Part shown: positions 31,563-57,883 of the stretch, in pieces
Position numbering within the stretch: the stretch's first letter is position 1
How the letters are laid out: each line of letters starts with the position of its first letter
Source of the DNA: Acidiphilium sp. C61
GTDB lineage: Bacteria; Pseudomonadota; Alphaproteobacteria; Acetobacterales; Acetobacteraceae
Direction of reading: 5' to 3'
Assembly (NCBI RefSeq): GCF_902712915.1
Contig: NZ_CACTIA010000005.1
Coordinates: forward strand, 1,450,001-1,514,000
DNA length: 64,000 nt
Notes under the pieces: model-generated
What the model saw: the letters and a program-made list of their open reading frames with translations, nothing else
What the model was told of the DNA's origin: nothing
The model's database searches: none
Program-made: the position numbers and the translations under genes

Positions 31563-32876
31563 ATGCACAATACCGCCGTGATCCTTGCCGCCGGCCTCGG
31601 CACCCGGATGAAGTCGAGCCGCCCCAAGGTGCTGCACCGCATCGCCGGCCAGCCGATGCTCGCCCATCTGCTCGCCGCCTGCAAGACGGCCTTCGCCGAA
31701 ACAATCGTCGTCACCGGCCCGGATATGGACGACGTCGCCCGCGCCGCCGCCCCGCACCCGACCGTGATCCAGCGCGAGCGCCTCGGCACCGCCCATGCCG
31801 CCCTCGCCGCGGCGGATCATTTCGGCACCGGCGCCGTCACCCTCGTCTATGGCGACAATCCGCTGGTCACCGGCGCGACGCTCCAGCGCCTCGGCGCGCG
31901 GCTCGGCGCGGGGGATGCGGCGCTGGTGCTGCTCGGCACCCGCCCGCCGGAGCCCGGCGCCTTCGGCCGCATCATCGGCCCCGATGGCTTCGCCGAACGC
32001 ATCGTCGAATTCGCCGACGCGACCGAGGCCGAGCGCGCGATCGGCCTGTGCAATGTCGGCGGCTTCTCCGCCACCGCCGCCGACATGCGCCGCTGGCTCG
32101 GGAAAATCGGCAACGACAACGCGAAGGGCGAATACTACCTTACCGACCTCGTCGCCGTCGCCCGCGCCGAGGGAGCTGCCGTCGCCGTGGTCGAGGCGCC
32201 GTGGGACGAATGCCGGGGGGTGAATTCCCGCGCCGAGCTTGCCGCCGCCGAGGCCGCGATGCAGTCCCGCCTGCGCGCCGCCGCCCTCGCCGCCGGGGTG
32301 ACGATGACAGCCCCCGAAACCGTCTTCCTCGCCGCCGACACAGCGCTCGCCGCCGATGTCACGATCGAGCCGCATGTCGTCTTCGGCCCCGGCGTGACGG
32401 TCGGGCCGGATGTCACGATCCGCGCCTTCTCCCATCTCGAGGGCTGCACGATCGCGTCCGGCGCCGTCATCGGCCCCTATGCGCGGCTGCGCCCGGGCAG
32501 CGAGATCGGGGCGGGCGCCCATGTCGGCAATTTTGTCGAGCTCAAGGCCGCCCGCCTCGGCGCCGGCGCCAAGGCCAACCACCTGACCTATCTCGGCGAT
32601 GCCGAAATCGGCCCGCGCGCCAATATCGGCGCCGGCACCATCACCTGCAATTACGACGGCTTCGCCAAGCACCGCACCACGATCGGCGCCGACGCCTTCA
32701 TCGGTTCGGATGTCGCCCTCGTGGCACCTGTTACCGTGGGGGAGCGTGCGATCATCGCCGCCGGCAGCGTCATCACCGACCCGGTGGCGGCGGATTCGCT
32801 GGCGCTCGCGCGCAGCCGGCAGGTCGAAAAGCCCGGCCGCGCGGCCGAACTGCGCATGACGAAGGGAAAACGCTGA
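31563..32876 (+). CDS. glmU: Bifunctional UDP-N-acetylglucosamine pyrophosphorylase / glucosamine-1-phosphate acetyltransferase
   Basis: GlmU makes UDP-GlcNAc, the precursor of peptidoglycan and lipopolysaccharide. The N-terminal uridylyltransferase domain starts with VILAAGLGTRMKSSRPKVLH and contains VYGDNPLVTG. The C-terminal left-handed beta-helix acetyltransferase domain includes YARLRPGSEIGAGAHVGNFVELK, HLTYLGDAEIG and GAGTITCNYDGF. At 437 residues it is slightly short of the usual 450. Its stop overlaps the glmS start (TGATG), so the two consecutive steps are coupled. Confidence 0.97.
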   Translation: MHNTAVILAAGLGTRMKSSRPKVLHRIAGQPMLAHLLAACKTAFAETIVVTGPDMDDVARAAAPHPTVIQRERLGTAHAALAAADHFGTGAVTLVYGDNPLVTGATLQRLGARLGAGDAALVLLGTRPPEPGAFGRIIGPDGFAERIVEFADATEAERAIGLCNVGGFSATAADMRRWLGKIGNDNAKGEYYLTDLVAVARAEGAAVAVVEAPWDECRGVNSRAELAAAEAAMQSRLRAAALAAGVTMTAPETVFLAADTALAADVTIEPHVVFGPGVTVGPDVTIRAFSHLEGCTIASGAVIGPYARLRPGSEIGAGAHVGNFVELKAARLGAGAKANHLTYLGDAEIGPRANIGAGTITCNYDGFAKHRTTIGADAFIGSDVALVAPVTVGERAIIAAGSVITDPVAADSLALARSRQVEKPGRAAELRMTKGKR

Positions 32877-34699
32877 TGTGCGGCATTGTCGGACTGATCG
32901 GGCGGAACGACGCCGCCCCCCTGCTGCTCGACGGTCTCTCCCGCCTCGCCTATCGCGGCTATGACAGCGCCGGCATCGCCACCCTGGTCGAGGGCGCGAT
33001 CACCCGCCGCCGGGCCGAGGGCAAGCTCGCCAACCTGGCCGCCAGCCTCGCCGCCGAGCCGCTCGCCGGCACCACCGGCATCGGCCATACCCGCTGGGCG
33101 ACGCATGGCGCCCCCACCGAAGGCAACGCCCATCCGCACGGCACCGCCCGCGTCGCCGTCGTGCATAACGGCATCATCGAGAACCATGCCGAACTGCGCG
33201 CCGAGCTCGAAGCCGCCGGCCAGGTCTTCTCCACCGAGACCGACACCGAAACCGTTGCCCAGCTCGTCGACCTGCACCTCGCCCAAGGCCTCGCCCCAAT
33301 CGAGGCTGCCGCCGCCGCCTTCGCCCGGCTCGAAGGCGCCTATGCGCTGGCGCTGATCTTCGCCGGCCATCCCGAGCTGATGATCGGCGCGCAGCGCGGC
33401 GCCCCGCTCGCGGTCGGCTTCGGCGAGGAGGAGATGTATCTCGGTTCCGACGCCCTGGCCCTCGCGCCGCTGACCCGCCGCATCGCCTATCTCGACGATG
33501 GCGACTGGGTGATCGTCTCGCGCAGCGGTGCCGAATTCCGTGACGCCGCGAACAACCCGGTCACCCGCGAGGTCAAGCTGACCCGCCTGACCGGCGCGTC
33601 CATCGGCAAGGGCAATTTCCGCCATTTCATGGAAAAGGAGCTGCACGAGAACCCCGCGATCATCGGCGACACGCTGAACCGCATGATTGATCCGGCAACC
33701 CGCCTGCCGGTCCTGCCGGACCTCGCGATCGACCTCGCCGCCATTCCGCGCATCACCCTCTCGGCCTGCGGCTCGGCCTATTATGCCGGTCTGACGGCGC
33801 GTTACTGGCTGGAGGAGATCGCGCGGATCGCGGTCGATGCCGATGTGGCCAGCGAGTTTCGCTACCGCGAACCACCGCTCGACCCCGCAGGGCTCGGACT
33901 CGTCGTCAGCCAGTCCGGCGAAACCGCCGATACCATGGCCGCGCTGCGCTACATGAAGCGCCAGGGCTGCAAGGTGATGTCGGTGGTCAACGTGCCGGAA
34001 AGCACGATGGCGCGCGAGAGCGACCTGATGCTGGAAACCATCGCCGGCCCGGAAATCAGCGTCGCCAGCACCAAGGCCTTCACCGCACAGCTCGCCGTGC
34101 TCGCCGGCTTCACCCTCGCCCTCGCCCGCGCCCGCGGCGCGCGGAGCGATGCCGAGCTCGCGCCGCTCGTCGCCGCCCTGATGGAGCTTCCCGGCAAGAT
34201 GGCCCAGCTCCTCGCCGATGACGCCGAGATCCGCGCCCTCGCCGAAGACATCCGCGATGCGCGCGACGTGCTGTTCTTCGGCCGCGGCTCGATGATGCCG
34301 ATCGCCCTCGAAGGCGCGCTGAAGCTGAAGGAGCTGAGCTACATCCACGCCGAAGGCTACCCCGCCGGCGAAATGAAACACGGGCCGATCGCGCTGATCG
34401 ACCCCTCGGTGCCGGTCATCGCGGTGCTGCCCTCCGGCCCGCTGTTCGAGAAAACCGCCTCCAACCTGCAGGAGGCCGCGGCCCGCGGCGGGCGGATCAT
34501 CCTGTTCAGCGACCGCGCCGGCGCAGCGCGCCTCTCCGGCATCGCCGAGCGCACCGTCATCCTGCCGGACTGCGCCCCGTTCGTCGCCCCGCTACTCTAT
34601 GCCATCCCGGTGCAGCTTCTGGCCTACCACGTCGCCATCCTGAAAGGCACGGACGTCGACCAGCCGCGCAACCTCGCCAAATCGGTAACGGTTGAATAA
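32876..34699 (+). CDS. glmS: Glutamine-fructose-6-phosphate aminotransferase (isomerizing)
   Basis: GlmS makes glucosamine-6-phosphate, the first committed step of amino-sugar synthesis. The 607-residue protein starts MCGIVG, with Cys2 as the glutaminase nucleophile, and has HTRWATHGAPTEGNAHPH. The isomerase half has two SIS domains (SACGSAYYAGL, SQSGETADTMAALR, EGYPAGEMKHGPIALI). The C-terminus KGTDVDQPRNLAKSVTVE is the universally conserved segment whose DNA is bound by TnsD of Tn7. The gene is intact despite the transposon 25 nt past its stop. Confidence 0.99.
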   Translation: MCGIVGLIGRNDAAPLLLDGLSRLAYRGYDSAGIATLVEGAITRRRAEGKLANLAASLAAEPLAGTTGIGHTRWATHGAPTEGNAHPHGTARVAVVHNGIIENHAELRAELEAAGQVFSTETDTETVAQLVDLHLAQGLAPIEAAAAAFARLEGAYALALIFAGHPELMIGAQRGAPLAVGFGEEEMYLGSDALALAPLTRRIAYLDDGDWVIVSRSGAEFRDAANNPVTREVKLTRLTGASIGKGNFRHFMEKELHENPAIIGDTLNRMIDPATRLPVLPDLAIDLAAIPRITLSACGSAYYAGLTARYWLEEIARIAVDADVASEFRYREPPLDPAGLGLVVSQSGETADTMAALRYMKRQGCKVMSVVNVPESTMARESDLMLETIAGPEISVASTKAFTAQLAVLAGFTLALARARGARSDAELAPLVAALMELPGKMAQLLADDAEIRALAEDIRDARDVLFFGRGSMMPIALEGALKLKELSYIHAEGYPAGEMKHGPIALIDPSVPVIAVLPSGPLFEKTASNLQEAAARGGRIILFSDRAGAARLSGIAERTVILPDCAPFVAPLLYAIPVQLLAYHVAILKGTDVDQPRNLAKSVTVE

Positions 34700-34723
34700 G
34701 GCAACGCCGCCAGGATCGCCCGT
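34657..34723 (+). other. attTn7: TnsD recognition region and insertion point
   Basis: The last codons of glmS (34657-34699) are close to the E. coli sequence known to bind TnsD, for example GACCAGCCGCGCAACCTCGC and AAATCGGTAACGGTTGA. The transposon end starts at 34724, so 24 nt separate stop and element, the classical Tn7 distance. The 5 nt before the end (CCCGT, 34719-34723) would be the target duplication; its partner at the other end is missing from this window. Confidence 0.88.
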
Positions 34724-34812
34724 TGTAGACGGAAAATAAAGTTGTATCCTAGATAATAAAGTCATATTCCAGATATTAAAATTATATCCTAGACAATAAA
34801 GATTTATACAAC
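34724..34812 (+). repeat. Tn7-like right end with four TnsB-type binding sites
   Basis: The terminus TGTAGACGGA resembles Tn7's TGTGGGCGGA. Four copies of an AATAAAG-type site begin at 34735, 34755, 34775 (ATTAAAA) and 34795, a strict 20-bp period, and the first three are each followed by a close match to TATCCTAGA. Tn7's right end likewise holds four tightly packed TnsB sites with the core AATAAAGT, whereas its left end has three spaced ones. This fits a right end facing glmS. Confidence 0.85.
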
Positions 34813-35176
34813 GCAACATAATTGCGGTCCAATCTGGCCCGGGGGTCGGGGCCAACGGCTGTGGATCGGTCTGGGGTCCCGTCGCCGATCCGCATTCCAA
34901 GTGGCTGATGCAACTCGCTTTCGCGGGGTCAACATCCGGCGTCGATCCACAGGGGATTTCTGCCGGGCAGCTTACGGCTGACGGAAGCGGGTTCGTTCAC
35001 CCACCCTTTGCTGCTACTCCAGAATGCCAGAGGTGGCGCTGTCGTGTGAGATCAAACTGCTCGAGGTCAGGTCGCGCGATCAGGCGAGCGTGCACTCTGA
35101 ACTGTCCGTCGTCAGAACATATGGCTCAATTCGCGGCGTAGCTTAGCGGAGAACGGGCCTCGTCTGGGGGTTGATG
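34813..35176. other. Intergenic stretch inside the Tn7-like right end
   Basis: No convincing gene is seen. The last 50 bp may include the terminus of the IS3-type relic that follows. The sequence is of mixed composition and holds no clear hairpin or promoter. Confidence 0.4.
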
Positions 35177-35644
35177 TTAGGCGGCAAACTTGCGGTGTTG
35201 CAAGCGCCGATGCTCGGTGGTCTTCCGTTTAATCCTTTCGCGCTGCTTGATGATGGCCGGGGCCCTGCCGAAGTAGGTGTCTGCGGGCGTCACGTTGTTC
35301 AGGCTTTCGTGATAGCGCCGGTGGTTGTAGTTTTCGACGAAGGCCTTGATCTGGGCCCCGAGGTCACCGGGCAGGAAGTAGTTTTCCAAGAGGATGCGGT
35401 TTTTCAGGGTCTGGTGCCAGCGCTCGATCTTGCCCTGGGTCTGGGGGTGCATCGGGGCGCCTCGGACGTGTCTCATCTTGTTGGCCTCGATGTATTCGGC
35501 CAGTTCGCCCGCGATGTAGCTTGGGTGTCTGAAAGGTCGTAGCGGCAATTTCTTCCTACTGTTTGATGCTTCGATCTGCTTCGCCCTGACGGGCCACTGA
35601 ACTGAAGACCACGCTCTTTGAAAGGATGCGCGACCAGTCGGCAA
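35177..35644 (-). pseudogene. C-terminal relic of an IS3-family transposase
   Basis: About 118 codons (residues 37 onward) match the end of an IS3-type integrase-core transposase: SYIAGELAEYIEANKMRHV, GKIERWHQTLKNR with the third catalytic Glu, NYNHRRYHESLNNVTPADTYFG and a basic tail. The first two catalytic Asp residues and the whole N-terminus are missing. The homology begins abruptly near 35540, and the first 35 codons come from the neighbouring broken gene. It is therefore a non-functional fragment. Confidence 0.8.
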
Positions 35645-35693
35645 GCTTAGCGGCGACCAGCTGTTTCCGGAGTTTGGGCAGTACGTGTTTCAC
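35556..35693 (-). pseudogene. Broken partner gene of the antitoxin-like protein
   Basis: A GTG at 35693 overlaps the stop of the upstream gene as GTGA and opens a 45-codon frame beginning VKHVLPKLRKQLVAAKLADW. It is cut by the IS3-type relic. The coupled position is where the toxin of a Xre/MbcA/ParS-type pair would lie, but too little remains to recognise a RES or other toxin domain. Only the position and the coupling support this call. Confidence 0.4.
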
Positions 35694-36310
35694 GCGTAGT
35701 CAAAGGCTACTGCCGCCGCGCTGACCACGTTCTTCACGTCGCCCGCGCGTAGCGCGTCGATCGGCGCCTTGCCACCGGTCATTCGATTGGGGACAACCAG
35801 CCACTCCCATGCTTCCTCGGCGGAGGTGAAGTGCTCGGCCACTAGATCGAGACCGTCCACGGGCCGGCGACGATCGAACTGCCGCAGCGGATAGACAAAG
35901 TTCCGCACCCCCTTACGCAGCGCCACGACCTTGCCGGCCTTACGCCAGTTGTCGAGGGTGCCCCGCGCAATGGCGAGCCGTTTGACCACCACGCCCGCAC
36001 CGACGAGTTCGCTCTCAACCCAATCGGCCGCCTCGTCGTCAACGGTGATCGCATCCAGAAGCCGACGGCCCTTTGCCATCGAGACGAGCGGGCCGACGCC
36101 GGCACCCCGCAGCACGCGCCCCCCGGGCGCGGCCGGCGGCGCAACCAACTTCGGCTCACGCCGACGGATCGTCTTGGCAGCCATGGGAACCGCGATCTTG
36201 AGCACCGAGGCCAGATCGACGAGGTCACGCAGGGGCATGCTCTCGACTTTGCTTTTGATCGCTTTTGTCAAAATGTCCCGCGTAAGCTGAGATGGCTTTG
36301 CAGTGCTCAT
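35690..36310 (-). CDS. Antitoxin-like protein with Xre/MbcA/ParS-type C-terminal domain
   Basis: A 206-residue protein. The C-terminal 60 residues (HFTSAEEAWEWLVVPNRMTG, then GKAPIDALRAGDVKNVVSAA) follow the pattern of the DUF2384 toxin-binding domain: a WL..PN turn, a G(G)..P...L..G motif and a final helix. The middle contains a possible helix-turn-helix (VKRLAIARGTLDNWRKAGKV). A good AAAGGA ribosome site precedes the start. As an antitoxin it would bind and autoregulate with a toxin encoded just downstream, but that gene is broken, leaving this copy orphaned. The domain call is by pattern and moderately sure. Confidence 0.6.
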   Translation of the reverse strand: MSTAKPSQLTRDILTKAIKSKVESMPLRDLVDLASVLKIAVPMAAKTIRRREPKLVAPPAAPGGRVLRGAGVGPLVSMAKGRRLLDAITVDDEAADWVESELVGAGVVVKRLAIARGTLDNWRKAGKVVALRKGVRNFVYPLRQFDRRRPVDGLDLVAEHFTSAEEAWEWLVVPNRMTGGKAPIDALRAGDVKNVVSAAAVAFDYA

Positions 36311-37055
36311 GACACGTCCTTTTTAGGCAAGATAGGCAATATGGCAAAATATGGAGGACCATCACATTAGCGTGATGATTTGCCGAATTTTTCATCGCAT
36401 TTGGATCACGCATTTCATCACGTTGTCGAAACTGCTTGCCCACACTCGATTTGCCCGCACTAACTCAATCTTCAGGCCGCAGCTATGCCGGCCCCGATTC
36501 CTCAACCCACATCTCGTTCGCGCGGCCTTGCGACCACGTTCAGACTATTCGACAAATCAAGGTAGACACCCGCTTGCCGCGCGTCATAATCTCTATTGAC
36601 GTCGACCACGCCATTGATCGATCATACTTCAAACGATCCAAATGGACGACGTGGCGGTGAAACAATTTGTTCACATCGTCTGGATTTAGTCTTTTGCGCC
36701 GTTTCGAATAATTTCTTTTAGGTGCAACATAACTAATTGCTCGAAGGAACTTTGCTTGTCTTGTAGTCAAATGGATTGCAACAATCAGGCGACGCAGAAC
36801 GACCGTTCGCGCGATTGGGATGATGGACGTGGCGCCTGTCGCAGCTCCAACTTTTCCGACACCTCCTGCAACCCGAACGGCGACGTCGCAATCGGGCGAG
36901 GCTTTTCGCCGAAGCGCCCCTGCACGCAGAACTCGAACCGGTAGGCCGACGTTGCCTACTCGCCTCTGTCACACCTGTCCCCAATGTCCGACTGCTTCGA
37001 ACCTCATTCCGAGGTTGTCCGACGCTGGCCGGCCCCGATCCGATTGAATTAGCGA
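36311..37055. other. 745-bp intergenic region before tnsA
   Basis: An AT-richer region between the divergent antitoxin-like gene and tnsA. The first 60 bp hold the antitoxin promoter region with repeated CCATATTTTGCCATATTGCC. No supportable gene was seen, and no further copies of the TnsB-type site. The tns promoter must lie near its right part. Confidence 0.4.
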
Positions 37056-37895
37056 ATGGCCTCACGCCGATACGGTTTCGACGAGAAAAAAATCCAGCGG
37101 TTCTATAAGGAAGGACGTGGGACGGGGAATGGCCAAGATTACAAGCCATGGTTGACGATCCAGGACGTCCCAACACTTGGTCGCGCAACACGCATCCCCG
37201 GCCACACGACTGGACGTCTGCACCATTTCCTATCCGACATCGAGACTCGTTTCTTCGTGTTACTGGATTGGGACGACGCGGTGACCGACATTCGTGAGCA
37301 ATTCCCGCTCGACCGGGAGGTGACCCGCATGCTCGCCAAAGACATGGGCATAATCCACCCAATCGATCCCGCGTCGAGGACAGATATCATAATGACAACG
37401 GACTTTTTGATTGACATCAGAAGCGGGCGAACGACTCGGACTATAGCGAGATCCGCCAAGCCGGCCCAAAAGCTGGAAGAACCGCGAACACTAGAGAAAC
37501 TGGAACTCGAGCGCAGGTATTGGAAACGCGAAGGCATCGAGTGGCATCTGATCACGGAGAAGGATCTTCCGCGTGTTCGTGTCGCTAATCTTCAGTGGCT
37601 GCATAAGATGCGGTCGCTGCACGAGCTCGAGGCACCACACCCCGACTATTGGCCCGATCGCTGCGAGCAGTTCCTGACCGAATTCACCCGGACCAGAAGC
37701 GGATCAATCCAGGTCTTTCTTACCCAGTTGGAAGAGAAGTGCGGGTTCTCCCCGGGCGAGCCGTTGACCGCCCTTCGTCACCTCGTAGCGACGAGACGGC
37801 TGCGGATGAACCTCGACCGCGAGTTTAGCACTAAAGATCCGCTAGACCTTTTCAAAGTTACTACCCGTTTCGAGGAAGATCGGAGGCTGGGGTGA
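37056..37895 (+). CDS. tnsA: Tn7-like transposase endonuclease subunit TnsA
   Basis: TnsA cuts the 5' ends of the transposon, making Tn7-type cut-and-paste clean at both strands. The 279 residues (Tn7 TnsA 273) align closely: KEGRGTGNGQDYKPWLTIQDVP, TGRLHHFLSDIE, DIREQFPL, TTDFLID, RTLEKLELERRYW. The nuclease triad is Glu63, Asp116 and Lys135, matching E63, D114, K132 of Tn7. The residue two before the Lys is Ser where Tn7 has Gln. The C-terminal part that contacts TnsC is present. The stop overlaps the tnsB GTG start (GTGA). Confidence 0.93.
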   Translation: MASRRYGFDEKKIQRFYKEGRGTGNGQDYKPWLTIQDVPTLGRATRIPGHTTGRLHHFLSDIETRFFVLLDWDDAVTDIREQFPLDREVTRMLAKDMGIIHPIDPASRTDIIMTTDFLIDIRSGRTTRTIARSAKPAQKLEEPRTLEKLELERRYWKREGIEWHLITEKDLPRVRVANLQWLHKMRSLHELEAPHPDYWPDRCEQFLTEFTRTRSGSIQVFLTQLEEKCGFSPGEPLTALRHLVATRRLRMNLDREFSTKDPLDLFKVTTRFEEDRRLG

Positions 37896-40099
37896 TCCTT
37901 GCTCGCAACGATCTGCTCCAGACAACGGGAGAGCCCATACGACGCATTCGGATCCTGTGGATCTCCCCCCCACAAAACAACGTTGTGACGATCGATGTCG
38001 ACGCCGCTACTGCCCTACCCGAACTCGGTGACCTGCAGTCGCTGGTGAAGGCAGTGGAAGTCGCCGAATGGCAAATCATGGAGGCCGACCCGTATCTCCT
38101 GATCGTACGTGACGCGGCTTTGAAAGCGTCTCACAAAGCCCTTCGAGACCGTGCTTGGGGTCTCATTTGTGAGCTGGCCACCAAGGAACCGGACATCTTC
38201 AGGAGCCAGTTTCGTGGAAAGGAAGTTCGACGTATCGTCGAGCAAGCACGAGCCAGCGGCGACCCCGCCATAAATCGGACGACCCGGAGGCAGATCTATT
38301 GTTACCTCCGCCGTTACTGGCAGCGGGGCATGGTACCGAACGCCTTGCTTCCCGACTATCACAATTCAGGCGCCCCGGGAAAGTCGAGAAACTCATCAGA
38401 CCGAAAGCGTGGACGACCCAGGCAGTTCGGATCCACCCCGGGTGCCAATATCACCCCGGAGATCCGCCAGGTATTCCGGGTCGGGTTTGATCGGCTTTAT
38501 GCGACGGCCCGCAAGCGAACATGGACGTTGCGCGACGCGTACGACAAGATCATCGCCGATTTTTTCTGCGTGAAGCATATCGATCCCGAAACCGGCCGGG
38601 TTCGACACGAACCCAAGGACGAAGTTCATGAGTCCGGCGGCTTACCCAGTTTCAAGCAGTTTCAATATTGGGCAGACAAGGATCACGTACGTCTCGACGT
38701 GAAGCGCAAGCGCGTTGGCGAACGCATTTACGATAAGGACATGCGCGGCCTGACAGGAACCGCAACTGCCGAGGTATTCGGGCCTGGGGACCGATACCTG
38801 ATAGATGCCACGATCGCGGATGTCTATTTGCTTTCACGCATCGATCGAGAACGGATAGTCGGGCGGCCTGTCATCTACGTGATAATCGACGTCTTCAGCC
38901 GCATGATAACCGGCATCTACGTCGGGCTGGAGGGCCCGTCATGGGTGGGTGCCATGATGGCTCTTGCGAACTCCAACGCCGACAAGGTCAAATTCTGCAA
39001 GGATTTTGACATTTCAATCGAACCACATGACTGGCCCTGTCATTGCCTCCCGGAGATCTTTCTCGGTGACAGGGGGGAGATGGCAAGCAGCATGATTGAC
39101 ACCCTCAGCAATACCTTAAAGATTAGCGTAGAAACTGCCGCACCCTATCGGTGCGAGTGGAAGGGAATCGTCGAGCAACGCTTCAAAATCCTGCCCGCGA
39201 AATTCAAGCCGTTTCTTCCGGGCTATGTCCAGGGGGACTTCCGGGCTAGGGGCGGGTCTGATTACCGGCTCGATGCCCTTCTCGATCTCGACGAATTTAC
39301 GCAGGTCATCATCAACTGCGTTCTTTTTTATAACAATCAGCACGAGATCTCCCGCTACGATAGGGACAGGAACGTCCTGGCTGATAGCGTGCCCGCCATT
39401 CCTGTGGAGTTGTGGGAGTGGGGCAGGCAAAATCGTTCTGGTGCCATGCGCTCCTTCCCGCAAGACAGGGTGCTCTACTGCCTCCTGCCACGGGACACGG
39501 CAATGGTGACCGAACTCGGTATCCGCTTCAAGTCTGCCTATTACACGTGTGCCCTGGCGATGGAGCAGCGATGGTTCGACAAGGCACGCCAGGAAAAGCG
39601 ATGGCAGATCGAGGTCGCCTACGATCCGCGATGCCTCGATTACATCTATCTTGCCGCCGATGATGGCGAGCAGTCCTTCCACGAGTGCACCATGACACCT
39701 CGGAGCCGCGCCCTGCGCCAGGTGTCCCTGCCCGAGATCGAGCAGCAATATTTCTTCGATCAGGATCAAAAGGCCAACCGCGAGCAGCGAAGCCAGATGG
39801 CGAGGGCCGACGTGATGACGGAAATCGAGGCCGTGGTCGAGAAGGCAAAACAAAAGCAGCCCAAATTACGCCGGGGCAGCAATGCCAGCCGCACAAAGGA
39901 TATCCGGGCAAACCGCGCGGCCGAGCGGGAAATCCGCCGTGACGAGGAGGCCTTCCGGCCCGGACAGCCTTCCACCGATCCCGGGCAGCACAGCGGAGAG
40001 GTTGTGCCGTTCCCGCGTAGCGTCACCGCTGAAGACGAGCCTGACTACAGCATGCCTTCGATTGACGAAATTCTTGGAGACGATGATGACGACTCCTGA
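37892..40099 (+). CDS. tnsB: Tn7-like DDE transposase TnsB
   Basis: TnsB binds the end repeats and cuts and joins the 3' ends. The 735-residue protein has a helix-turn-helix-rich N-terminus and a retroviral-integrase-type core with Asp305 (LIDATIADVYLL), Asp393 (LGDRGEM) and Glu428 (WKGIVEQRF). The spacing of 88 and 35 residues is identical to D273, D361, E396 of Tn7 TnsB. A charged C-terminal tail (FRPGQPS, then EDEPDYSMPSIDEILGDDDD) resembles the part that recruits TnsC. The GTG start overlaps tnsA; the stop overlaps tnsC by 17 bp. Confidence 0.95.
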   Translation: MILARNDLLQTTGEPIRRIRILWISPPQNNVVTIDVDAATALPELGDLQSLVKAVEVAEWQIMEADPYLLIVRDAALKASHKALRDRAWGLICELATKEPDIFRSQFRGKEVRRIVEQARASGDPAINRTTRRQIYCYLRRYWQRGMVPNALLPDYHNSGAPGKSRNSSDRKRGRPRQFGSTPGANITPEIRQVFRVGFDRLYATARKRTWTLRDAYDKIIADFFCVKHIDPETGRVRHEPKDEVHESGGLPSFKQFQYWADKDHVRLDVKRKRVGERIYDKDMRGLTGTATAEVFGPGDRYLIDATIADVYLLSRIDRERIVGRPVIYVIIDVFSRMITGIYVGLEGPSWVGAMMALANSNADKVKFCKDFDISIEPHDWPCHCLPEIFLGDRGEMASSMIDTLSNTLKISVETAAPYRCEWKGIVEQRFKILPAKFKPFLPGYVQGDFRARGGSDYRLDALLDLDEFTQVIINCVLFYNNQHEISRYDRDRNVLADSVPAIPVELWEWGRQNRSGAMRSFPQDRVLYCLLPRDTAMVTELGIRFKSAYYTCALAMEQRWFDKARQEKRWQIEVAYDPRCLDYIYLAADDGEQSFHECTMTPRSRALRQVSLPEIEQQYFFDQDQKANREQRSQMARADVMTEIEAVVEKAKQKQPKLRRGSNASRTKDIRANRAAEREIRRDEEAFRPGQPSTDPGQHSGEVVPFPRSVTAEDEPDYSMPSIDEILGDDDDDS

Positions 40100-41705
40100 T
40101 TTGCCGACTCTGCCCGAATATGAAGGTAACTTGTGGATCTCGAGGCTTCCGCCAATAAAGTCGCAACTCGAGATCTACCAGGAGCTGCGCGACGCACCTT
40201 ACTTCAATGAAAAAGAGCCCGGCTATCCACGGCATTATCGCAAGCACTGCATAGCTCGCCTAGCCAACTGCTTCCTTCCCCAGGCCCGACAGGTGATCCT
40301 GGCCGAGCGCTTTTCGATGTTATTGCGCCAGGGTTACGTCGGCCGAAATCCCCTTACCCACGACTATCTCAAGCACATCTACGCGGGCATCGAGAGAATC
40401 GAAAGAAGATCGCTGGATGTAGCGCCAAAGACACCGGTGAAAGTCACCGCAAGCAGTTTTGGGCTCCTTGGCTGTCCAGGTGTCGGCAAGACGGTGTCAG
40501 TACGGCGAGTCCTGGCTCAATATCCACAGACGATTCAGCATGACAATCCGTTCAGCATTACCCAGATCGTCTGGCTTAGACTCGAGGCGCCCGTTCTCGG
40601 GTCTCTGAGACAATTATGTATCGACTTCTTTCACGCCGTCGACGAATTGATAGGTACAGACTATGTCAAGCGATACGGAAAAAGCAAAACGACGGAACAG
40701 CTGACGCCGTATATGGCGCAGGTTGCGAATTTACACGGGCTCGGCGTGTTGGTGATCGACGAAATCCAGCACTTACGCGGCGCGAAGGTCGGCGCGAACA
40801 CGTTGATGAACTTCCTTGTAAAGCTGGTGAATACGATCGGCGTGCCAGTGATTCCGATTGGAACGTTTGGCGCTTTGCCCACCCTGCAGGGCAATTTCAG
40901 CACGGCACGTCGCTCCACCGGTCTGGGCTCACAATTCTGGGATCGGATAGCGCCGGGACCGGAGTGGGATCGTTTCCTCACTGATCTATGGAAATACCAG
41001 TGGACCACACCACCTACCGCCCTCAACGGGGAACTGAACGCGGTGATGTACGATCAGAGCCAGGGCGTCGTCGATCTGGCGGTCAAGCTATTCATGCTGG
41101 CCCAGATGCGGGTTGTCGACGCAAACCAGAGTCGCAAGAGACAGTCAGAGGAATTAACACCACGCCTGATCCGGACAGTCGCGAGAGACGAGTTCCAGCT
41201 CGTAGCGCCGATGATCAAGGCTTTGCGTGAGAACGACAACTTCGAACTGAACATGTACGACGACTTGCGGGGACTGGACGCACACATCCAGTCGATCCTC
41301 GGCGGTGCGTCTGACCCCAGACCGAGGCTCGAAATCGACCCCGAGGCGTCCCCAAGGTCAGGACAGGCGCCGAAGTCCCAGTCCGTCACCGATGCGGTGC
41401 TCAGTGCATTGAAGAAAATTTGCGTGGCAGAGGATATCGCACAGGCGCTGGTCAATGACGCCGTAGCCAAGGATCCGTCCGGCGACCCGCTCTTGTTACT
41501 CGAGAACGTTCTCACGACCTTGAGAAGCAGCCCGCCGAAAGTCAGTCGTCCCAAGGTCAAGGCAGGGTCTCGGAAGGTGGCGGATCCTGATGATGACGAC
41601 CTCCGGACAATTGTGAAAGGCGGTGCAGAGCGGGGTAAATGCGCGTACGATGCGCTTAAGGAAGCCGGAGTGGTAAGGCCGCCTCTTCTGGATTTCGCCG
41701 GTTAA
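40083..41705 (+). CDS. tnsC: Tn7-like AAA+ regulator TnsC
   Basis: TnsC is the ATP-dependent matchmaker that links target-bound TnsD or TnsE to TnsAB and imposes target immunity. The 540-residue protein (Tn7 TnsC 555) has Walker A GCPGVGKT with Lys136, Walker B VLVIDEIQHL, a sensor-like PVIPIGTFGAL and a conserved downstream helical region. The start is one of two adjacent ATGs (40083 or 40086) inside the end of tnsB. It ends 2 bp before tnsD, so translation is coupled. Confidence 0.93.
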   Translation: MMTTPDLPTLPEYEGNLWISRLPPIKSQLEIYQELRDAPYFNEKEPGYPRHYRKHCIARLANCFLPQARQVILAERFSMLLRQGYVGRNPLTHDYLKHIYAGIERIERRSLDVAPKTPVKVTASSFGLLGCPGVGKTVSVRRVLAQYPQTIQHDNPFSITQIVWLRLEAPVLGSLRQLCIDFFHAVDELIGTDYVKRYGKSKTTEQLTPYMAQVANLHGLGVLVIDEIQHLRGAKVGANTLMNFLVKLVNTIGVPVIPIGTFGALPTLQGNFSTARRSTGLGSQFWDRIAPGPEWDRFLTDLWKYQWTTPPTALNGELNAVMYDQSQGVVDLAVKLFMLAQMRVVDANQSRKRQSEELTPRLIRTVARDEFQLVAPMIKALRENDNFELNMYDDLRGLDAHIQSILGGASDPRPRLEIDPEASPRSGQAPKSQSVTDAVLSALKKICVAEDIAQALVNDAVAKDPSGDPLLLLENVLTTLRSSPPKVSRPKVKAGSRKVADPDDDDLRTIVKGGAERGKCAYDALKEAGVVRPPLLDFAG

Positions 41706-41707
41706 CC

Positions 41708-43447
41708 ATGCTCGCGTATTTCCCGCAGGTTTATCCGGGAGAACTGCTGTACAGCGTACTGGCCCGCTACCATCGACACATGGGCGCCCCCTCCTCGATT
41801 CAATCCATGGAGAGCCTGTACGGCCACCGCCTTGTCGTTGCGAGTGTAGATCTTCCAGGCCATTTGCAGTCCCTGGTGGATCGGCTCCCGCCGGGCTCCG
41901 GATGGACGGTTGACCGCGTCATCGAGGAACTCACCTTGTTCCCGTACTATACCGCGTTCCAGCCACCAGGGGTGGTCAATCGCGTCCGAGCGGCAATGCG
42001 GAATGGTGTTACGAATGGGATGCTGCTTCGCCTGGGCATAGCCGCATTTCGGGCCGGTCACGTAACTCAGCTGCGGTTCTGCCCAGCCTGTCTGACAGAG
42101 ATGGAAAAATGCCCAGGCGAACCCTATTGGCGCCGCGACCACCAGTTGCCTGGCGTTCTTGTCTGCCCAACGCACGGCTGTCCGCTGAAGGCCAGTGCGG
42201 TATCGCTGACCGGCTTCGGACGCCACATCTATGTCGCGGCCACCAAGCGCAGCTGCCCGAACGATTCGCCGGATCTTGTCGCCGGAAATGATTACCTCCT
42301 GTTGACGAAACTTGAGCGCCTGGCCGGCGCGAGCCGCGCGCTTCTCGAGAAGCCCGGCCCAATCAGAACTACGCAAGAGTGGAGCAAACACTACCGTGGC
42401 GCCTTGCTGCGATCTGGGCTGACCCTGTCTTCCGGACGGCTGGACCAGCGACGGCTCGAACAGGCATTTTTCGAAAATTATGCGGGTGTCCTTCGGCTAC
42501 TTCCGGAACTGACCGTCGGGGCATTTCGCCCCGGTCCCTGGCTTACAGCGATGTCACGCAAACACCGACACGCGTTTCATCCGTTCCAGCACGTGCTCCT
42601 CCAGGATTTTCTCGACCGTCAGCTGCGAATTGACGTGCCATTCGGCGACGGGCCTTGGGAGTGTCCGAATCCCCTGGCGCCACATCGGAGCAGGCTGACA
42701 ATTTCCGAAGTGAGAATCCACCGAAACCATGGTCATCTGGTCGGCGTGTTCGCCTGCAAATGCGGGTATATCTACACCCGCAGTCTCTTCCTGGAACGGC
42801 AAGTTCTCGGACCACCGCGCTTTCAGGCCTACGGCCCATTGTTGGCGCCTGCACTGAGAGAGGCGGTGGATTCCGGCATATCGCTGCGAAGCGTGGCGCG
42901 TAGGCTTGAGCTGGACCCGAAGACGGTAGTCAAGCTGGCCGTCGAACTGGGCATAGGCACGCGGTGGAAGACGCCGCCAGGTTACTGCTCGGCTGCGTCA
43001 TGCGTCGGTCGAACCACGGCATCCCATCGACGAGTACCGCCAGTCAGCAGACGCTCAGCTTCCCCGCATTTTCGTCGAGACTGGGATGTTGTTGATCGCG
43101 AAGCTGGAATAAAGATTTTGCTGGCGACCCTGCACCTTTTGACGCAGGAGCCACCCGTGCGGATCACGCGATCGCAGATCGAACGCACGACCTGGAATCG
43201 GGGGTGGCTCGCCAAGCGAGCCGGGAAGTTGCCACACGCAATGGGATGTCTACGTGATGTTGTCGAGTCGGTCGATCAGTTCCAGGAGCGCCGCACCCGG
43301 CACATCATCCGGGAGATGGATCGCGCCGGTGAACCCCTGGCGGCCTGGCGAGTTCTGCGCCGGGCTGGTCTGACATCCGCGCGCGAACACCTGGTCCAGA
43401 CGCTTTTGGCCGAGCATTTTGAGACGCCCTGGGTGGCGACCGCATGA
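41708..43447 (+). CDS. tnsD: Tn7-like site-selector TnsD (TniQ family)
   Basis: TnsD binds the glmS end and directs insertion to attTn7. The TniQ domain begins FPQVYPGELLYSVLARYHRH and holds a zinc site (FCPACL, then LVCPTHGCPL). SRKHRHAFHPFQHVLLQDFL and the C-terminal half (RDWDVVDREAGIKILLA, GKLPHAMGCL, EPLAAWRVLRRAGL) match Tn7 TnsD, which is 508 residues. This one has 579. The extra stretch includes a second Cys cluster (ECPNP, FACKCGYIY) and a helix-turn-helix-like GISLRSVARRLELDPKTV. Its stop overlaps tnsE (ATGA). The attTn7 position of the element agrees with its role. Confidence 0.93.
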   Translation: MLAYFPQVYPGELLYSVLARYHRHMGAPSSIQSMESLYGHRLVVASVDLPGHLQSLVDRLPPGSGWTVDRVIEELTLFPYYTAFQPPGVVNRVRAAMRNGVTNGMLLRLGIAAFRAGHVTQLRFCPACLTEMEKCPGEPYWRRDHQLPGVLVCPTHGCPLKASAVSLTGFGRHIYVAATKRSCPNDSPDLVAGNDYLLLTKLERLAGASRALLEKPGPIRTTQEWSKHYRGALLRSGLTLSSGRLDQRRLEQAFFENYAGVLRLLPELTVGAFRPGPWLTAMSRKHRHAFHPFQHVLLQDFLDRQLRIDVPFGDGPWECPNPLAPHRSRLTISEVRIHRNHGHLVGVFACKCGYIYTRSLFLERQVLGPPRFQAYGPLLAPALREAVDSGISLRSVARRLELDPKTVVKLAVELGIGTRWKTPPGYCSAASCVGRTTASHRRVPPVSRRSASPHFRRDWDVVDREAGIKILLATLHLLTQEPPVRITRSQIERTTWNRGWLAKRAGKLPHAMGCLRDVVESVDQFQERRTRHIIREMDRAGEPLAAWRVLRRAGLTSAREHLVQTLLAEHFETPWVATA

Positions 43448-45066
43448 GGCGGATCGTCTTTCGGTCGATCGCGGATCTCTCGAAGGATCCCGTTGAAGTC
43501 TTTTGGCTGAGGGGGTTGGTTCGTAACGAGAGAAACGAGTGGAACGTTAGGGTCGTTTACCGGGTCAAGGGCACGAATGATTTAATCCCGGTAGAGGAGC
43601 CCATCGGGATGTTCCCCTTGTTAAGCCCCGGCATCTGGTTCGAGCATGGTCAAATGCGAACGGACGAACTGCCGGGGAGCGATTTCGAAACGATCGTGCC
43701 GGACACGGGCCGACCGGAAATCCTCACGTCCGCGGATCTCCCGCATGAACTCCTGCCCCTGCCCAAGGGGACAAACCGCGCCCAGCGTTTGTTCCACTAT
43801 CGGACAGCGAAAGGCGACGTGCTGGTTCCGGTGATCGAGCTGGTCCGGGCAATGTTCATCCACAACCGCGCCTTGGCCTTGGCATTGATGCGCCCGGCGG
43901 GCCTTGAGCAGCTGTATGCACCATTGATGCCCGGGTGGAGCGAAACTGCGACGATCCGTTTCACGCGGGAAATCGATCCCCGCGCGATAAGCCGTAGCTT
44001 CGCACTGGAATTCGCCTGGATTGCCTTGGATCCGGATGCCAGGCGTGCATGGGACAGCATTCAACGTCTCTCGATGGGTCAAGAGTATGTCCTGTTTGAG
44101 CCGCCCTCGATCCAGAATTCCCTGTGGACGTTCCGCGGTACCCAACGCGGCAGGCAGTGGCTGGTACTGGAGTTGACCTGTATCGGTGGCCGTCGGCTCC
44201 CGTTTCGGAAGCTGGAATACAGTCATCCCGGCTTCGTCAAGGCGATGAGAGCTGGGGGTGACACTAAAGACGTGCCCGGCTCCAATGACCGGCACGGAAC
44301 TCGGACATCGTCGGCGGAGCGCGACATCGACGTCGACGACAAAGACGGAAGCGGCAGCTATCACACCACCAAAATTGTATCCCTTCCGAGCCGTCGCAGC
44401 GTGTTCGAGAACGATTTTGAAGTCGCGAAGATCCAACGGGCAGGGTCGGAAAAGTCCCGGCCGCGCAAGAAAAAGGCCGAAGAGACAAGGAAGGCACCGG
44501 ATACATCCACGCTCCAAGCGTTCCACGTCACAACTGGCGAACGCAGCGAAACCGCAAGGCGCGTTCCTTTGGAATTCAAGACGCTTGCGCTTGCACCCCT
44601 ACATGATATGGGCGATCTCGTGGCACTGGATGAGACCGTTCGTCACATGCGAGCCATGAGGCCCGGAGCGGCTTTCTCCGTAACGCTGGTTCAACTTGAG
44701 CAGGGTCGCGCAGCCGCGAGTACGGGATCGCGGCCGCGTGTCGCGATGCTCGTCACAATAGAACCGCCGGGCAAACCTCCGATAGTCCTGATCGACTTCG
44801 AGAGGACCGGGATTTCAGCACTCTCCGTGATGACCATGCACTTTACGCCAGATACCACCGAGGAGCAGATCGAGAACTCGGTCCGTACGATGATCGATGG
44901 CTGGATCAACAGTGGCGGACATTGGTCTGGCGAGAAGGAAAAAGACCTTGAGACGATCTGTCGCTGCGAACGGCTACCCAAGGCGTTGATACCGAGAAAT
45001 ACCCACAGCGAAAGAAGCAAGGACTGGGCGAAACGATTGCTCAGAAAATTGGGACTGTCAGCATGA
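43444..45066 (+). CDS. tnsE: Tn7-like target selector TnsE
   Basis: TnsE steers Tn7 to discontinuously replicating DNA, such as conjugating plasmids, through contact with the sliding clamp and 3'-recessed ends. I assign it by position (fifth in the operon), length (540; Tn7 TnsE 538) and short matches: an early HxxxL-type LRGLVRNERNEWNV, the IELVRAMFIHNRALALALM block (Tn7 PQLELARSLFLIN), a charged linker (330-360), a late LIDFERTGISALS strand and the C-terminal KDWAKRLLRKLG. The protein diverges strongly outside these blocks. It overlaps tnsD by 4 bp. Confidence 0.82.
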   Translation: MRRIVFRSIADLSKDPVEVFWLRGLVRNERNEWNVRVVYRVKGTNDLIPVEEPIGMFPLLSPGIWFEHGQMRTDELPGSDFETIVPDTGRPEILTSADLPHELLPLPKGTNRAQRLFHYRTAKGDVLVPVIELVRAMFIHNRALALALMRPAGLEQLYAPLMPGWSETATIRFTREIDPRAISRSFALEFAWIALDPDARRAWDSIQRLSMGQEYVLFEPPSIQNSLWTFRGTQRGRQWLVLELTCIGGRRLPFRKLEYSHPGFVKAMRAGGDTKDVPGSNDRHGTRTSSAERDIDVDDKDGSGSYHTTKIVSLPSRRSVFENDFEVAKIQRAGSEKSRPRKKKAEETRKAPDTSTLQAFHVTTGERSETARRVPLEFKTLALAPLHDMGDLVALDETVRHMRAMRPGAAFSVTLVQLEQGRAAASTGSRPRVAMLVTIEPPGKPPIVLIDFERTGISALSVMTMHFTPDTTEEQIENSVRTMIDGWINSGGHWSGEKEKDLETICRCERLPKALIPRNTHSERSKDWAKRLLRKLGLSA

Positions 45067-45650: not shown

Positions 45651-46417
45651 GGCAGCCCGCCTGCAAACGCTGCTGCCGTCCCACGCGCAGCCATCAGCAT
45701 GACGCGGCGGATTGCGGACTTGAGGCCCTCGTGCGCGTCGGAGATGACCAGCTTTACCTGACGCAGACCGCGGCGCACCAGGCTCTTGAGGAAGGCAGCC
45801 CAGAAGGTCTCGGCCTCGCTGGGGCCGATGTGCAGCCCGACGATCTCGCGCTTGCCTTCGGTATTAGCGGCCACGGCGATTATCGCAGCCACCGAGACGA
45901 TGCGCCCTCCCTCGCGCTGCTTGAGGTAGGTGGCGTCGAGCCAAAGATACGGCCAGTCACCGGTCAGCGGGCGCTCGAGGAAGGCGTTCACCCGCTCGTC
46001 GATATCCTTGCACAGCTTGCTCACCGTGCTCTTGCCAATGCCACTCAGCCCCATGGCCTGCACCAGGTCGTCGACGCGTCGGGTGGAGACGCCGCCAACC
46101 CAGGCTTCCTGGATCACCGCGACCAGGGCCTTCTCGGACGTCTTCCTGGGCTCGAGGAAAGGCGGGAAGTAAGAGCCCTGCCGCAGCTTGGGAATGCGCA
46201 GTTGTAGATTGCCGAGCCGGGTGTCGAGCGAGCGATCGCGGTAACCGTTGCGGTAGGTCGTCCGCTCACCAGTGCGCTCATGGCGCCCGGCGCCGATCGG
46301 GCCTTCCACGTCGGCTTCCATAAGCAGTTGCACTACGGCCTCCGCCACACTGCGCAGGAAATCTCCATCGCCGGCTTTCGCCAGCAATTCAGCCAAGGGT
46401 AGTCTGTCTTCGGTCAT
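45587..46417 (-). pseudogene. IS256-family transposase, 3'-truncated
   Basis: The N-terminal two thirds of a mutator/IS256 transposase: LAKAGDGDFLRSVAEAVVQLL, RNGYRDRSLDTRLGNLQLRIP, the first catalytic Asp in YLWLDATYLKQ and the second in VISDAHEGLKSAIRR. Homology stops right after IRRVM (near 45700), before the conserved WQRCRVH block and the third catalytic Glu, and the frame then runs into IS66-derived sequence. The ATG at 46417 follows a GAGAGGA ribosome site. The protein would be inactive. Confidence 0.8.
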
Positions 46418-46496
46418 CGGGTCCTCTCGGGTTCGCGTGAAGCTTCGCAACTCCACCGTAGCCGCTCGATCCGATGGCCACCTAAACCCAGGCTCA

Positions 46497-46553
46497 TGCG
46501 TTGGATCGGCCCCTCCGGCCGGCTACGCCGACCTCCGGCGCCAATCCAACGCA
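46497..46553. repeat. Inverted repeat near the IS256-type relic
   Basis: Perfect 10-bp arms TGCGTTGGAT (46497-46506) and ATCCAACGCA (46544-46553) enclose a 37-bp GC-rich loop, upstream of the IS256-type transposase start. It may be an IS terminus or a foldback; origin not resolved. Confidence 0.4.
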
Positions 46554-46588
46554 CGGCAGTCAGACAATTTCCACCACAAGCGCGGACA

Positions 46589-46879
46589 TTAGCATCGACG
46601 GCGTCCTTCGGGCGTGTCGCCGTCGACAATTGGGGTCAGGATCGCGACGCCTTCCAGGTTTTCATCGAGCAGCGCGGCGATTCTGGCCGAGACTGCTGCG
46701 ATGTCCGCCGGCTCCAGCTTCGCCCCCACGCTTTCGGCAAGCGTATGCATCACCGCGACCTTTCTAAGGTAAGGCGCGGCGCGCTCATCGGGCAGCAATG
46801 CCTTGTAGGCCTTTGTCACGTCGCCCGCGAACCGCAGGAATTCGCGCCGGCGCTCATCCGGAACGACCAACGTCCCCAC
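46589..46879 (-). pseudogene. Fragment of a type I restriction enzyme R subunit (HsdR C-terminal region)
   Basis: A 96-codon open stretch with FLRFAGDVTKAYKALLPDER, AVMHTLAESVGAKLEPADIA and VSARIAALLDENLEG. It matches the helical C-terminal region of type I restriction R subunits that lies after the helicase domains. No motor or nuclease motif is present, and an in-frame stop lies just upstream, so it is a both-ends-truncated relic of a restriction system. It sits among IS fragments within the Tn7-like element, which often carries defence genes. Confidence 0.6.
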
Positions 46880-48117: not shown

Positions 48118-50415
48118 ATGGCTGCTGGGCTGAGTGGTTCGACGATCAAATCCTGGTTCCAGTATCGCTGCGAGCGGAAGACTCGCTACGAAATAATGGA
48201 CCCTACCGAACTGGCGGCTATCCCGGTCGCCAAGGATCAGCGCGAGCAACCTTGGACGACCCTGGGCGTCGATTACGAAGATCGGGTTGTCACGCGACTA
48301 GCTCGAGCGACCGGCGTGCTTCGTCCGACTCACGGCGAAGAGGGGCTGCTCGAGCGTCAAGCTATTGCGTTTCTGAAGGGGCAGGGCACGGCGACCTACG
48401 CGGCGCAGGTGAATCTACGTCCCCGAGGCAAACCGACATTCCTCGGCGGGGCCGATATCAAGCTCCGGAGAAGCTTTGCCGATCTGATCCGGCGTGAGGT
48501 TCGGCCAACCGGCCTCCACTTCACCGTGATCGACATCAAGGCGACCCGAGCAGCGCGCGCCTTTCACAAGACGCAGGTGGCCTTCTATGTCATGTTGTTG
48601 CGTGCGACGCTGGCAGAACTCGGCGTCGGCGCAACAGTCGAACCGATGGGCGAAATCTGGCGGATTCCCGATGACGGCGATGCCGAGGGCGATCGATGGA
48701 CCTCGGAAGAATTCGCGCTCAAGCCGTATCTGCGGCTGGTCGAGGACTTTTGCCGAACGACTCTGCCGACGATCGCGGACAAGGTCGTCGCCCAAGGCCG
48801 TGATGAGACGTTCTTCCATGTCTACTTCAAATGCGAGCAATGCGCTTATTTGCCGCATTGCATTGAGGCCGTAGGGCCGCATAGGTCGGCGCGGACGCGG
48901 GACGTTTCTGCCGTTGCTGGACTTACCCACGAAGCGAAGCGAACGCTCCTATCGATCGGTATAGGCACGGTGGCTGGACTCGCCGAACTCGGTGCCGGCG
49001 TTGGCCGCGTCGACGGCGCGGGTTGGTCCCTTTCGAGACGGGCCGATCAACTCGTCAGTCGCGCAAAGGCGCTCCGCGACGACAATGTCCGGCCCGGCAC
49101 CGAGCCGCACACCTTTCTCATGCCGCCCCGAACCGATGCAGCGATCTATCTCGTTGCCGACAACGACCCTGTTGACGACACGCTGGTGACCCTTGGCTAT
49201 CGATACGTAGACTCATCTGGTGTGCGCGAGCGAATCGAAGTCATGCCGACAGCGGACCGCGCCGGAGAGGCAAACGCATTGGTCTCCGTCTTCGGGCACC
49301 TTGTCGCCGACCTTGAAGCGATCGATGCCCACAACGAGGCCATTGGTGATCCAACGGATCCTACGGGCCTGTACGCCCATATCTTCCTGTATGAGACGAC
49401 CGAAGCTCTCGCGATCCAGAATGCCGTGAGGCGTCACCTGGAAGACCCTCGCGTCCGGACGGGTCTGCTGCACATGGTCCGCCTCTTCCCACCCGACGAG
49501 GTGGTTCCCGAGCCGGAATTTCGCGGGATGCAGCATCTTCCGGCGACCGCGCTTCGAAGCGTCGTCGAGCAACTTCTCTCGCTGCCCGTGACGGTCTCCT
49601 ACGACCTCCGTCAAGTGTCGGCCGCTCTTCAGCGGGCTGGTCTGATCTCCGAGGCATATTCACCGTCCCAGGCTTTTGAGCGCCCGTTCTCCTCATTGCT
49701 GGCGCTCGATGTCAGCCGCCATCTGCGCGAAGGGCGGGGGCGCGGTCCAGATGTGGACGCCATACGGGAGGACGTGAGGGCTCGACTAACGGCGAGCCAG
49801 GCAATCGCCGATTGGTTGAAGGCCGAGCACCAGCGTCGCATGGCCGCGTCCAAGTCGCCCATGCTGCGACTCAAAAAGCAGCCATTCCGCTTGCAGGCAA
49901 CCTTTAATCCGCTCGCTGCGGGCGACCTTGACGTGCTGCGAGCCTTCGAACTCCTCGAAAATCGCGCGGGTCTCCTGGAGACAATGATCCAACTTGCTCG
50001 GCCGACCCGTGTCCGCAGGGACACAGGTCGTGCGATCGGTCCAATGCGCCTTATCAATGTCAGCGAAAAGGGCCGCTCGGCTTTCCTTCTTTTCGCTATA
50101 CCTCGTGAGGCCGAGGATGCGGATCTCTCGTCCGGCGCCTTCGGGCTGATCCTCAGTAATGGCGAACCCGATTTGGTCCTCGAGCCTCGCCTATGGTCCA
50201 GCATGCGATGCGATCTCATGAATCCCTGGGCAAACGACCCACCGAATTTTCTAAGGGTCCGGATGTTTCGGCCGACGTTCAACGGCCCCTTCTTTCAGGA
50301 GGTCAAGCGCCGCGCCGGCCAAGATGGCTGGTGGTTGGATCAGAGCTTTGTCGATTTCAATTCGGCGAAAGTCGACAATTTCCTGACCTTCTTGGGCGCG
50401 CAGGTTCAGCCATGA
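48118..50415 (+). CDS. RecB-like PD-(D/E)XK nuclease with Fe-S cluster motif (TM0106-like), nuclease-helicase module part 1
   Basis: A 765-residue protein. Residues 1-260 form a RecB/Cas4/Dna2-like nuclease: Asp113 (FLGGADIK), the D-I-K pair Asp139-Lys141 ([12 protein letters not shown]) and the Q-x3-Y motif (Gln153, Tyr157). A cysteine set of Cys18 with Cys239, Cys242 and Cys248 ([10 protein letters not shown]) would bind a 4Fe-4S cluster as in Dna2 and AddB. The remaining 500 residues lack a P-loop; the end ([20 protein letters not shown] onward) looks like the beta-barrel/stalk domain found before Dna2-type helicase motors. The stop overlaps the helicase gene (ATGA). Together they resemble a Dna2 split over two genes, probably anti-phage cargo (inference). 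Confidence 0.75.
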
Positions 50416-51104: not shown

Positions 51105-51159
51105 GCCATGTAGCGGCGGCATAATGCTGCTGCGTGGCGGGGCAAAAGCCGGCCACTTG
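51082..51159. repeat. IS21 left-end repeats
   Basis: Outer repeat TGTACGCGGCGG with AAAA and AGGCC blocks (51082-51107), a middle GCGGCGGCATAATGC unit, and inner repeat GTGGCGGGGCAAAAGCC (51134-51159). These are the expected transposase-binding units of IS21-type ends. Confidence 0.75.
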
Positions 51160-51200
51160 TAGAGTTGCCTCTTTCGGAATGGAGGGAGAGGCGACGGGGG

Positions 51201-53524: not shown

Positions 53525-53545
53525 TACCCACCGCCAAGCAGGCTG

Positions 53546-53587
53546 CGGATATGAGAACGGCCCCTGCAGGGGCCGTTCTCATATCCG
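53546..53587. terminator. 42-bp perfect palindrome after istB
   Basis: CGGATATGAGAACGGCCCC is mirrored exactly about a TGCA centre, giving a 42-bp perfect palindrome 21 bp after the istB stop and 13 bp before the inner right-end repeat. The hairpin (about 19 bp of stem) would be an effective terminator, possibly in both directions, shielding the IS from outside transcription. Confidence 0.7.
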
Positions 53588-53599
53588 TCACGTCACAAT

Positions 53600-53654
53600 C
53601 CAGTGGCTGGTTTTTACGCCGCCACGCCGGCCTGGTTTTGATCCGCCGTTGACA
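53600..53654. repeat. IS21 right-end repeats
   Basis: Inner repeat 53600-53625 and outer repeat 53629-53654 in inverted orientation to the left-end units. The element ends in ACA at 53654, directly abutting the chemotaxis gene. Confidence 0.75.
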
Positions 53655-56239: not shown

Positions 56240-56254
56240 GCGCGGAGCATCATT

Positions 56255-57870: not shown

Positions 57871-57883
57871 GACTTATCAATAT

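Follow-up and report, generated by a model that had tools for sequence, protein, structure and literature searches.

Homologues of TnsE are described as almost universal among the Tn7-like transposons that target glmS or comM in a 2024 review (PMC11406308), where TnsE is also presented as the sole known family of target selectors not built on TniQ, its mechanistic study having been limited to prototypic Tn7. PMC10293859 distinguishes two branches of TnsE, the Tn7 relatives and the Tn6022-like proteins, sharing less than 10% identity, with 552 TnsE in all; these may include members of the clade described below. In PMC8649781, tnsE is said to be perhaps undercounted, its conservation being weak. 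Our literature search found nothing linking TnsE and TnsD of Tn7-like elements with Alphaproteobacteria, and nothing on TnsE with Thiopseudomonas. In this study, we analysed 64,000 nucleotides of Acidiphilium sp. C61 (contig NZ_CACTIA010000005.1, positions 1,450,001 to 1,514,000; the whole stretch is called the window), in which tnsABCDE genes follow glmS. An earlier note, made from these letters alone, had described a full Tn7-like element at attTn7. We consider it very probable that a diverged tnsABCDE element of the Tn7 family was inserted at attTn7 and is now a half-element, its left part having been lost or moved, or misjoined in the assembly. The element is of a type already known, with a diverged TnsE clade seen poorly by curated profiles.

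The locus shares with Tn7 (E. coli, NZ_CP026206.1) and with a Tn7 relative at glmS (NZ_CP061754.1) the A-B-C-D-E gene order with tnsA facing glmS, and a TGT terminus with repeats 24 nt from the glmS stop. It differs from Tn7 in that its proteins are 25-40% identical, its TnsE falls in a separate deep clade, and one end only was found. The comM-targeting Tn6022 likewise has a TnsE highly diverged from that of Tn7 (PMC10293859), but there tnsE is remote from the core genes, and chromosomal targeting relies on TniQ and TnsF.

The glmS gene (32876..34699, + strand, start approximate) encodes SIS and glutamine amidotransferase domains and ends with the stop codon at 34697-34699, its 3′ end being the attTn7 target. 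Its DNA is 95% and 93% identical over 1.25 kb to that of two relatives, and it is preceded by a GlmU-like open reading frame (ORF), as in 18 of the 20 loci of a class sample. The right end of the element (34724..34812, +), recognised by its repeat family and pattern matches, consists of the terminus TGTAGACGG, located 24 nt past the glmS stop, and four abutting direct repeats of about 20 bp that resemble TnsB sites. These repeats (family D1) are spaced by 20, 20 and 20 bp, with three pattern matches against 0.00 expected, and their layout resembles that of relatives and of E. coli Tn7. The five bases in front of the terminus, CCCGT (34719..34723), are presumed from the sequence to be the first copy of the target duplication. 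The location at attTn7 claimed in the earlier note is borne out; the tns genes themselves are not directly downstream of glmS, as it had put it, since tnsA begins 2.36 kb after the glmS end.

A similar distance was found in most copies with glmS in the fetched stretch. The TGT terminus lies 24-25 nt past glmS in nine of ten: the window, the Tn7 relative at E. coli glmS (L100), genomes G669, G745 and G793, Azospirillum, a Methylocystaceae metagenome-assembled genome (MAG), Acidithiobacillus HP-2 and a betaproteobacterial MAG; for five of the nine (L100, G669, L094, L095 and L019) the distance was read from the printed sequence, the script having chosen another TGT or none. In the tenth copy, from genome G764, TGTAGACGG occurs at 32 nt, or at 25 should an outer TGT be the true end. 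Six of 26 relative loci (L013, L016, L017, L019, L022 and L024) have a right-end cluster fitting the strict pattern upstream of tnsA, and none was found there within the fetched stretch of the others. In L017 (Acidithiobacillus sp. YTS05), a second right-end repeat cluster (8261-8301) separates tnsC from a shortened match to tnsD, as if two elements were nested or fused.

Five successive ORFs, all on the + strand, occupy 37056-45066 in the order tnsA-B-C-D-E, as the earlier note had read them. It called all five overlapping, which holds for the pairs A/B, B/C and D/E, but tnsC and tnsD are 2 bp apart. Pfam identifies the first four. tnsA (37056..37895, +) matched both domain profiles named for checking it, PF08722 (7.3e-20) and PF08721 (1.5e-14), and its Glu, Asp and Lys are aligned with Tn7. 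tnsB (37892..40099, +) matched the Mu transposase C-terminal domain (PF09299, 3.9e-07), the rve core giving just 0.0057, which falls short of its own cut-off; its D, D and E are aligned with Tn7 TnsB, and its place in a tree is given below. tnsC (39882..41705, +) encodes an ATPase with matches to AAA_22 (5.2e-18) and TniB (6.8e-09), a Walker A motif GCPGVGKT and a Walker B motif VLVIDE. Its start at 39882 is in doubt, and judging from the alignments 40030-40110 may be nearer the true one: of the 21 loci where TnsC was matched, similarity sets in at ORF residue 34-77 in 14 and at residue 2-17 in 7. tnsD (41708..43447, +) matched TnsD (1.8e-54) and TniQ (1.4e-28) and has an aligned zinc-finger-like motif CPxC...CPxH. 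Identity to the E. coli Tn7 proteins amounts to 33.3% for TnsA, 39.2% for TnsB, 39.5% for TnsC, 32.3% for TnsD and 25.5% for TnsE, in agreement with the divergence from Tn7 that had been noted. At this distance the sites known from Tn7 can still be aligned: the active-site Glu, Asp and Lys of TnsA, the Asp, Asp and Glu of TnsB, the Walker motifs of TnsC and the zinc-finger residues of TnsD.

The product of the fifth gene (43444..45066, +) is shown by profile-profile comparison, fold and tree to be a TnsE. Its frame is intact (540 aa) and overlaps within the operon, and the family is conserved along its entire length. Judged by sequence, this TnsE belongs to a separate deep clade spanning proteobacteria that is poorly recognised by Pfam TnsE_C. 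A search with a combined Tn7-type and clade profile returned 71 proteins, all of the clade and none of Tn7 type; it found no intermediate TnsE, which a word-limited search of 8000 candidates could miss. None of the 71 homologues is named TnsE among the matches listed, and none has a precomputed Pfam domain. TnsE_C gave no match over ten genomes, seven of them carriers of a clade TnsE on other evidence, and likewise none in the positive-control genomes.

Relatives of the element are sparse. In the genome collection, 16 of 26 relative loci have in-order tblastn matches to TnsA-E, partial matches counted; among the remaining ten, a nearby contig end truncates seven, L005 is without a TnsA match, L025 has only a piece of TnsE, and L020 has a different gene order and no TnsC match. 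Record titles name Stenotrophomonas, Thiomonas, Rhodoferax, Methylotenera, Gallionella, Chromobacterium, Acidithiobacillus, Azospirillum, Rhodomicrobium and Methylocystaceae, as well as MAGs labelled Acidobacteria and Desulfovibrio. Of 397 genomes from the family to which the window's closest relatives belong, 2 carried the clade, as did 1 of 385 in a class sample, namely the centre genome itself. The elements of G745 and G793 (both of that family), Azospirillum TSO22-1, the Methylocystaceae MAG and Acidithiobacillus HP-2 are like that of the window in having tnsABCDE after glmS and right-end repeats at 24-25 nt.

In a TnsB tree of 27 rows (G745 and G793 absent), the window groups with Stenotrophomonas and a gammaproteobacterial MAG (support 100/98) inside a 19-row clade (98/98). 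It lies on the Tn7 branch, far from TniA and apart from three Tn7-like elements without annotated TnsE in the fetched stretch, and is not Tn5053-like. The window TnsB groups with Stenotrophomonas and other beta- and gammaproteobacterial elements, not with the alphaproteobacterial ones that the tree contains; since its nearest kin are not alphaproteobacterial, the tree points to transfer of the element between classes. A host from Acidiphilium or the Acetobacteraceae is well supported: the closest named protein match is an Acidiphilium sp. MAG protein, 95% identical, and an insertion sequence (IS) of IS21 type in the window is nearly identical to one on a plasmid of A. multivorum. Both closest genomes, in which an empty glmS site was sought, hold right-end relics at glmS, the one in G764 matching the window at 95-98% identity as far as into tnsA and the one in G669 diverged; neither genome gave a tnsB match. 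These relics mark attTn7 as a recurrent site in the Acidiphilium-like group. The clade is not confined to it, as two Acidithiobacillus elements with right-end repeats, L016 (right end at about 3330) and the chromosomal L017 (about 3063), have no glmS in the fetched stretch.

Support for a route into plasmids comes from Azospirillum. A complete clade element of 46,663 bp (A. oryzae, NZ_CP054617.1, 96374-143036) resides on a 728-kb plasmid, with no annotated glmS beside it. It shares with the window the clade TnsA, B, C, TniQ and TnsE and ends of Tn7 type, and differs in being complete, in lying on a plasmid away from glmS, in its 5-bp duplication (ACAAA) and in its TniQ, which has 311 aa and little of the TnsD domain. 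Its termini are TGT...ACA, the right end carrying 20-bp repeats and the left end two dispersed sites that could be found. When joined, its flanks align unbroken over 577 positions (83.9%, the junction being at 400) with AZO_p4, a plasmid of A. lipoferum 4B, so that the empty site does exist; an A. ramasamyi alignment also spans the junction (to 443), and that of strain B510 ends there (to 402). An A. argentinense replicon holds a second clade element, with three sites at its left end and no right end found on searching. At 18200-18456 of L081 (A. argentinense p1), another right-end-like repeat cluster comes within about 20 bp after a left end, as if two elements stood in tandem. The Azospirillum replicons with clade elements are large and typed as non-mobilizable.

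The A. oryzae insertion and the A. lipoferum empty site fit TnsE-directed plasmid insertion at the level of the clade and support it without proving it. The short TniQ of this plasmid-borne member makes TnsE the likely selector, although that TniQ could itself have picked the site. The two targeting pathways proposed in the earlier note follow from the gene content and gain support at clade level, but not from the window copy itself. More tentatively, one may envisage a deep, previously unnamed TnsE lineage serving alpha-, beta- and gammaproteobacteria and Acidithiobacillus, which together with a short TniQ could act as the main target selector for elements residing on plasmids, perhaps preferring other targets than Tn7 TnsE does.

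By analogy with Tn7, an active element of this kind would have used two routes. TnsD would bind the glmS end, TnsA and TnsB would cut and join the element ends, TnsC would connect the target with the transposase, and TnsE would open the other route, towards DNA undergoing replication or conjugation. The element would have entered attTn7 of an Acidiphilium-like chromosome with its right end facing glmS, and recombination between copies of IS21 would probably have removed or displaced its left part, unless the join is an assembly error.

The earlier description of a full element is not supported, as one end only was found and the window copy is a half-element as assembled, whether rearranged or misjoined. 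A left end with dispersed repeats, seen in the A. oryzae and A. argentinense relatives, was not found here. A position weight matrix of the four right-end repeats, run over the whole window on both strands, gave as its best non-end site 63406 (AT-rich), which scored 18.8 against 30.8-35.3. With one flank available, the second copy of the target duplication was not found: an exact search for the junction, ACA with CCCGT in either orientation, gave nothing after tnsE and matched only at 37922, within tnsB. A terminus candidate at 47715-47743 was rejected: it has 11 mismatches in 29 positions, lies inside an ORF, shows no repeats and is not followed by CCCGT.

The break point is the IS21-type insertion sequence (51082..53654, +), 98.9% identical to the A. 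multivorum plasmid copy. It has no shared flanking bases, whereas one G669 copy lies between two TCTCGA sequences. As far as glmS, the left flank runs collinear with G764 and G669 alike. Beyond the insertion sequence lies a chemoreceptor gene cut at its other side (53614..54708, -; MCP signal profile matched at 3-75 of 172), followed by a chromosomal segment (55278..63301, strand not assigned) that in G764 is on a contig other than that of glmS; its first 2.5 kb are far from glmS in G669, at 0.86 Mb versus 2.79 Mb on the same contig. Either an IS21-linked rearrangement removed or displaced the left part, or the assembly was wrongly joined at IS21. As assembled, the window copy probably cannot move as one unit.

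Several observations weigh against the interpretation as a Tn7-family half-element. The fifth protein has no match of its own in Pfam or NCBIfam, an outcome which the earlier note had named as refuting its reading, but which is countered by the profile-profile, fold and tree results. It is about 25% identical to Tn7 TnsE, Foldseek gave no match against PDB at E <= 0.001, and the structural match to TnsE came from a second-look aligner. The 19-row TnsB clade adjoins Tn7 proper with modest support (87/86). The left end was sought by motif, so that a very diverged one could have escaped notice, and the rejected candidate at 47715-47743 is slightly better than the best upstream-control match (11 versus 13 mismatches). 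Finally, the A. multivorum plasmid copy of IS21 likewise is without matching flanks, so that their absence in the window is not decisive for recombination. PDB sequence searches with the fifth protein and with its own profile gave nothing up to E 1.

A wrong assembly join at a multicopy IS21, linking the tns half to the right flank while the real element is complete and continues elsewhere, is a serious, if less probable, alternative: the insertion sequence is 99% identical at two full-length places in G669, besides its plasmid copy, and the break coincides with its edges. Against this, the two relatives with glmS right ends and no tnsB match indicate that decay at attTn7 does occur. It is rather unlikely that the fifth protein is a TnsE homologue which no longer selects plasmids, having a different or lost target preference. 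Its low identity to Tn7 TnsE would suit this, as would the right ends of L016 and L017 away from glmS, the latter on a chromosome; the intact frame, the kept operon overlap, the conservation of the family along its length and the complete plasmid insertion of a clade member with short TniQ argue otherwise. That TnsC also matches the TniB profile might suggest an element of the Tn5053/Tn402 type, and a CRISPR-associated one may be thought of, but we regard both as extremely improbable, as TnsA is present, TnsD has its C-terminal domain, TnsB is far from TniA and no repeat array was found in 34700-55300; no cas genes were found among the subset of ORFs scanned.

The half-element in the window mainly documents decay of a clade element at attTn7 in Acidiphilium. 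The 71 homologues, in complete and broken elements, are material for testing which features of TnsE matter in plasmid targeting and, being unlabelled, suggest that profile-based surveys undercount TnsE.

Between the right end and tnsA, the element carries an IS3-type transposase fragment (35177..35644, -; PF13683 rve_3, 1.4e-14), which matches IS3 transposases on plasmids, and a gene similar to Xre/MbcA/ParS-type antitoxins (35690..36310, -; PF23125, 8.7e-13), for which no partner gene was identified. G764 (L067) has two copies of this antitoxin-like stretch, and the A. oryzae element has an annotated RES and MbcA/ParS/Xre pair (L088, 14672-15875). Past tnsE, a stretch common to Acidiphilium plasmids (45112-45357) and an IS66 TnpA-like piece (from 45431, IS66 TnpA model) precede an IS256-type fragment (45698..46593, strand not assigned), 98.5% identical to an IS256 on an A. 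cryptum plasmid and 99.2% to an A. multivorum plasmid. The cargo comprises a PD-(D/E)XK nuclease-like gene (48118..50415, +; PF12705, 6.7e-05) and an N-terminal piece of a DpdJ-like helicase cut by IS21 (50193..51104, +; PADLOC DpdJ, 1.2e-98, profile 1-225 of 2112). By these matches, 48118-51104 may be the remains of a Dpd module, a system for 7-deazaguanine DNA modification and restriction. The chromosomal right flank holds genes of a Tle1-like phospholipase (57925-59148) and a subtilase autotransporter (59473-62361), and at 57823-57928 a sequence of about 105 bp that is repeated at many places in G669 and G764 with about 79-92% identity.

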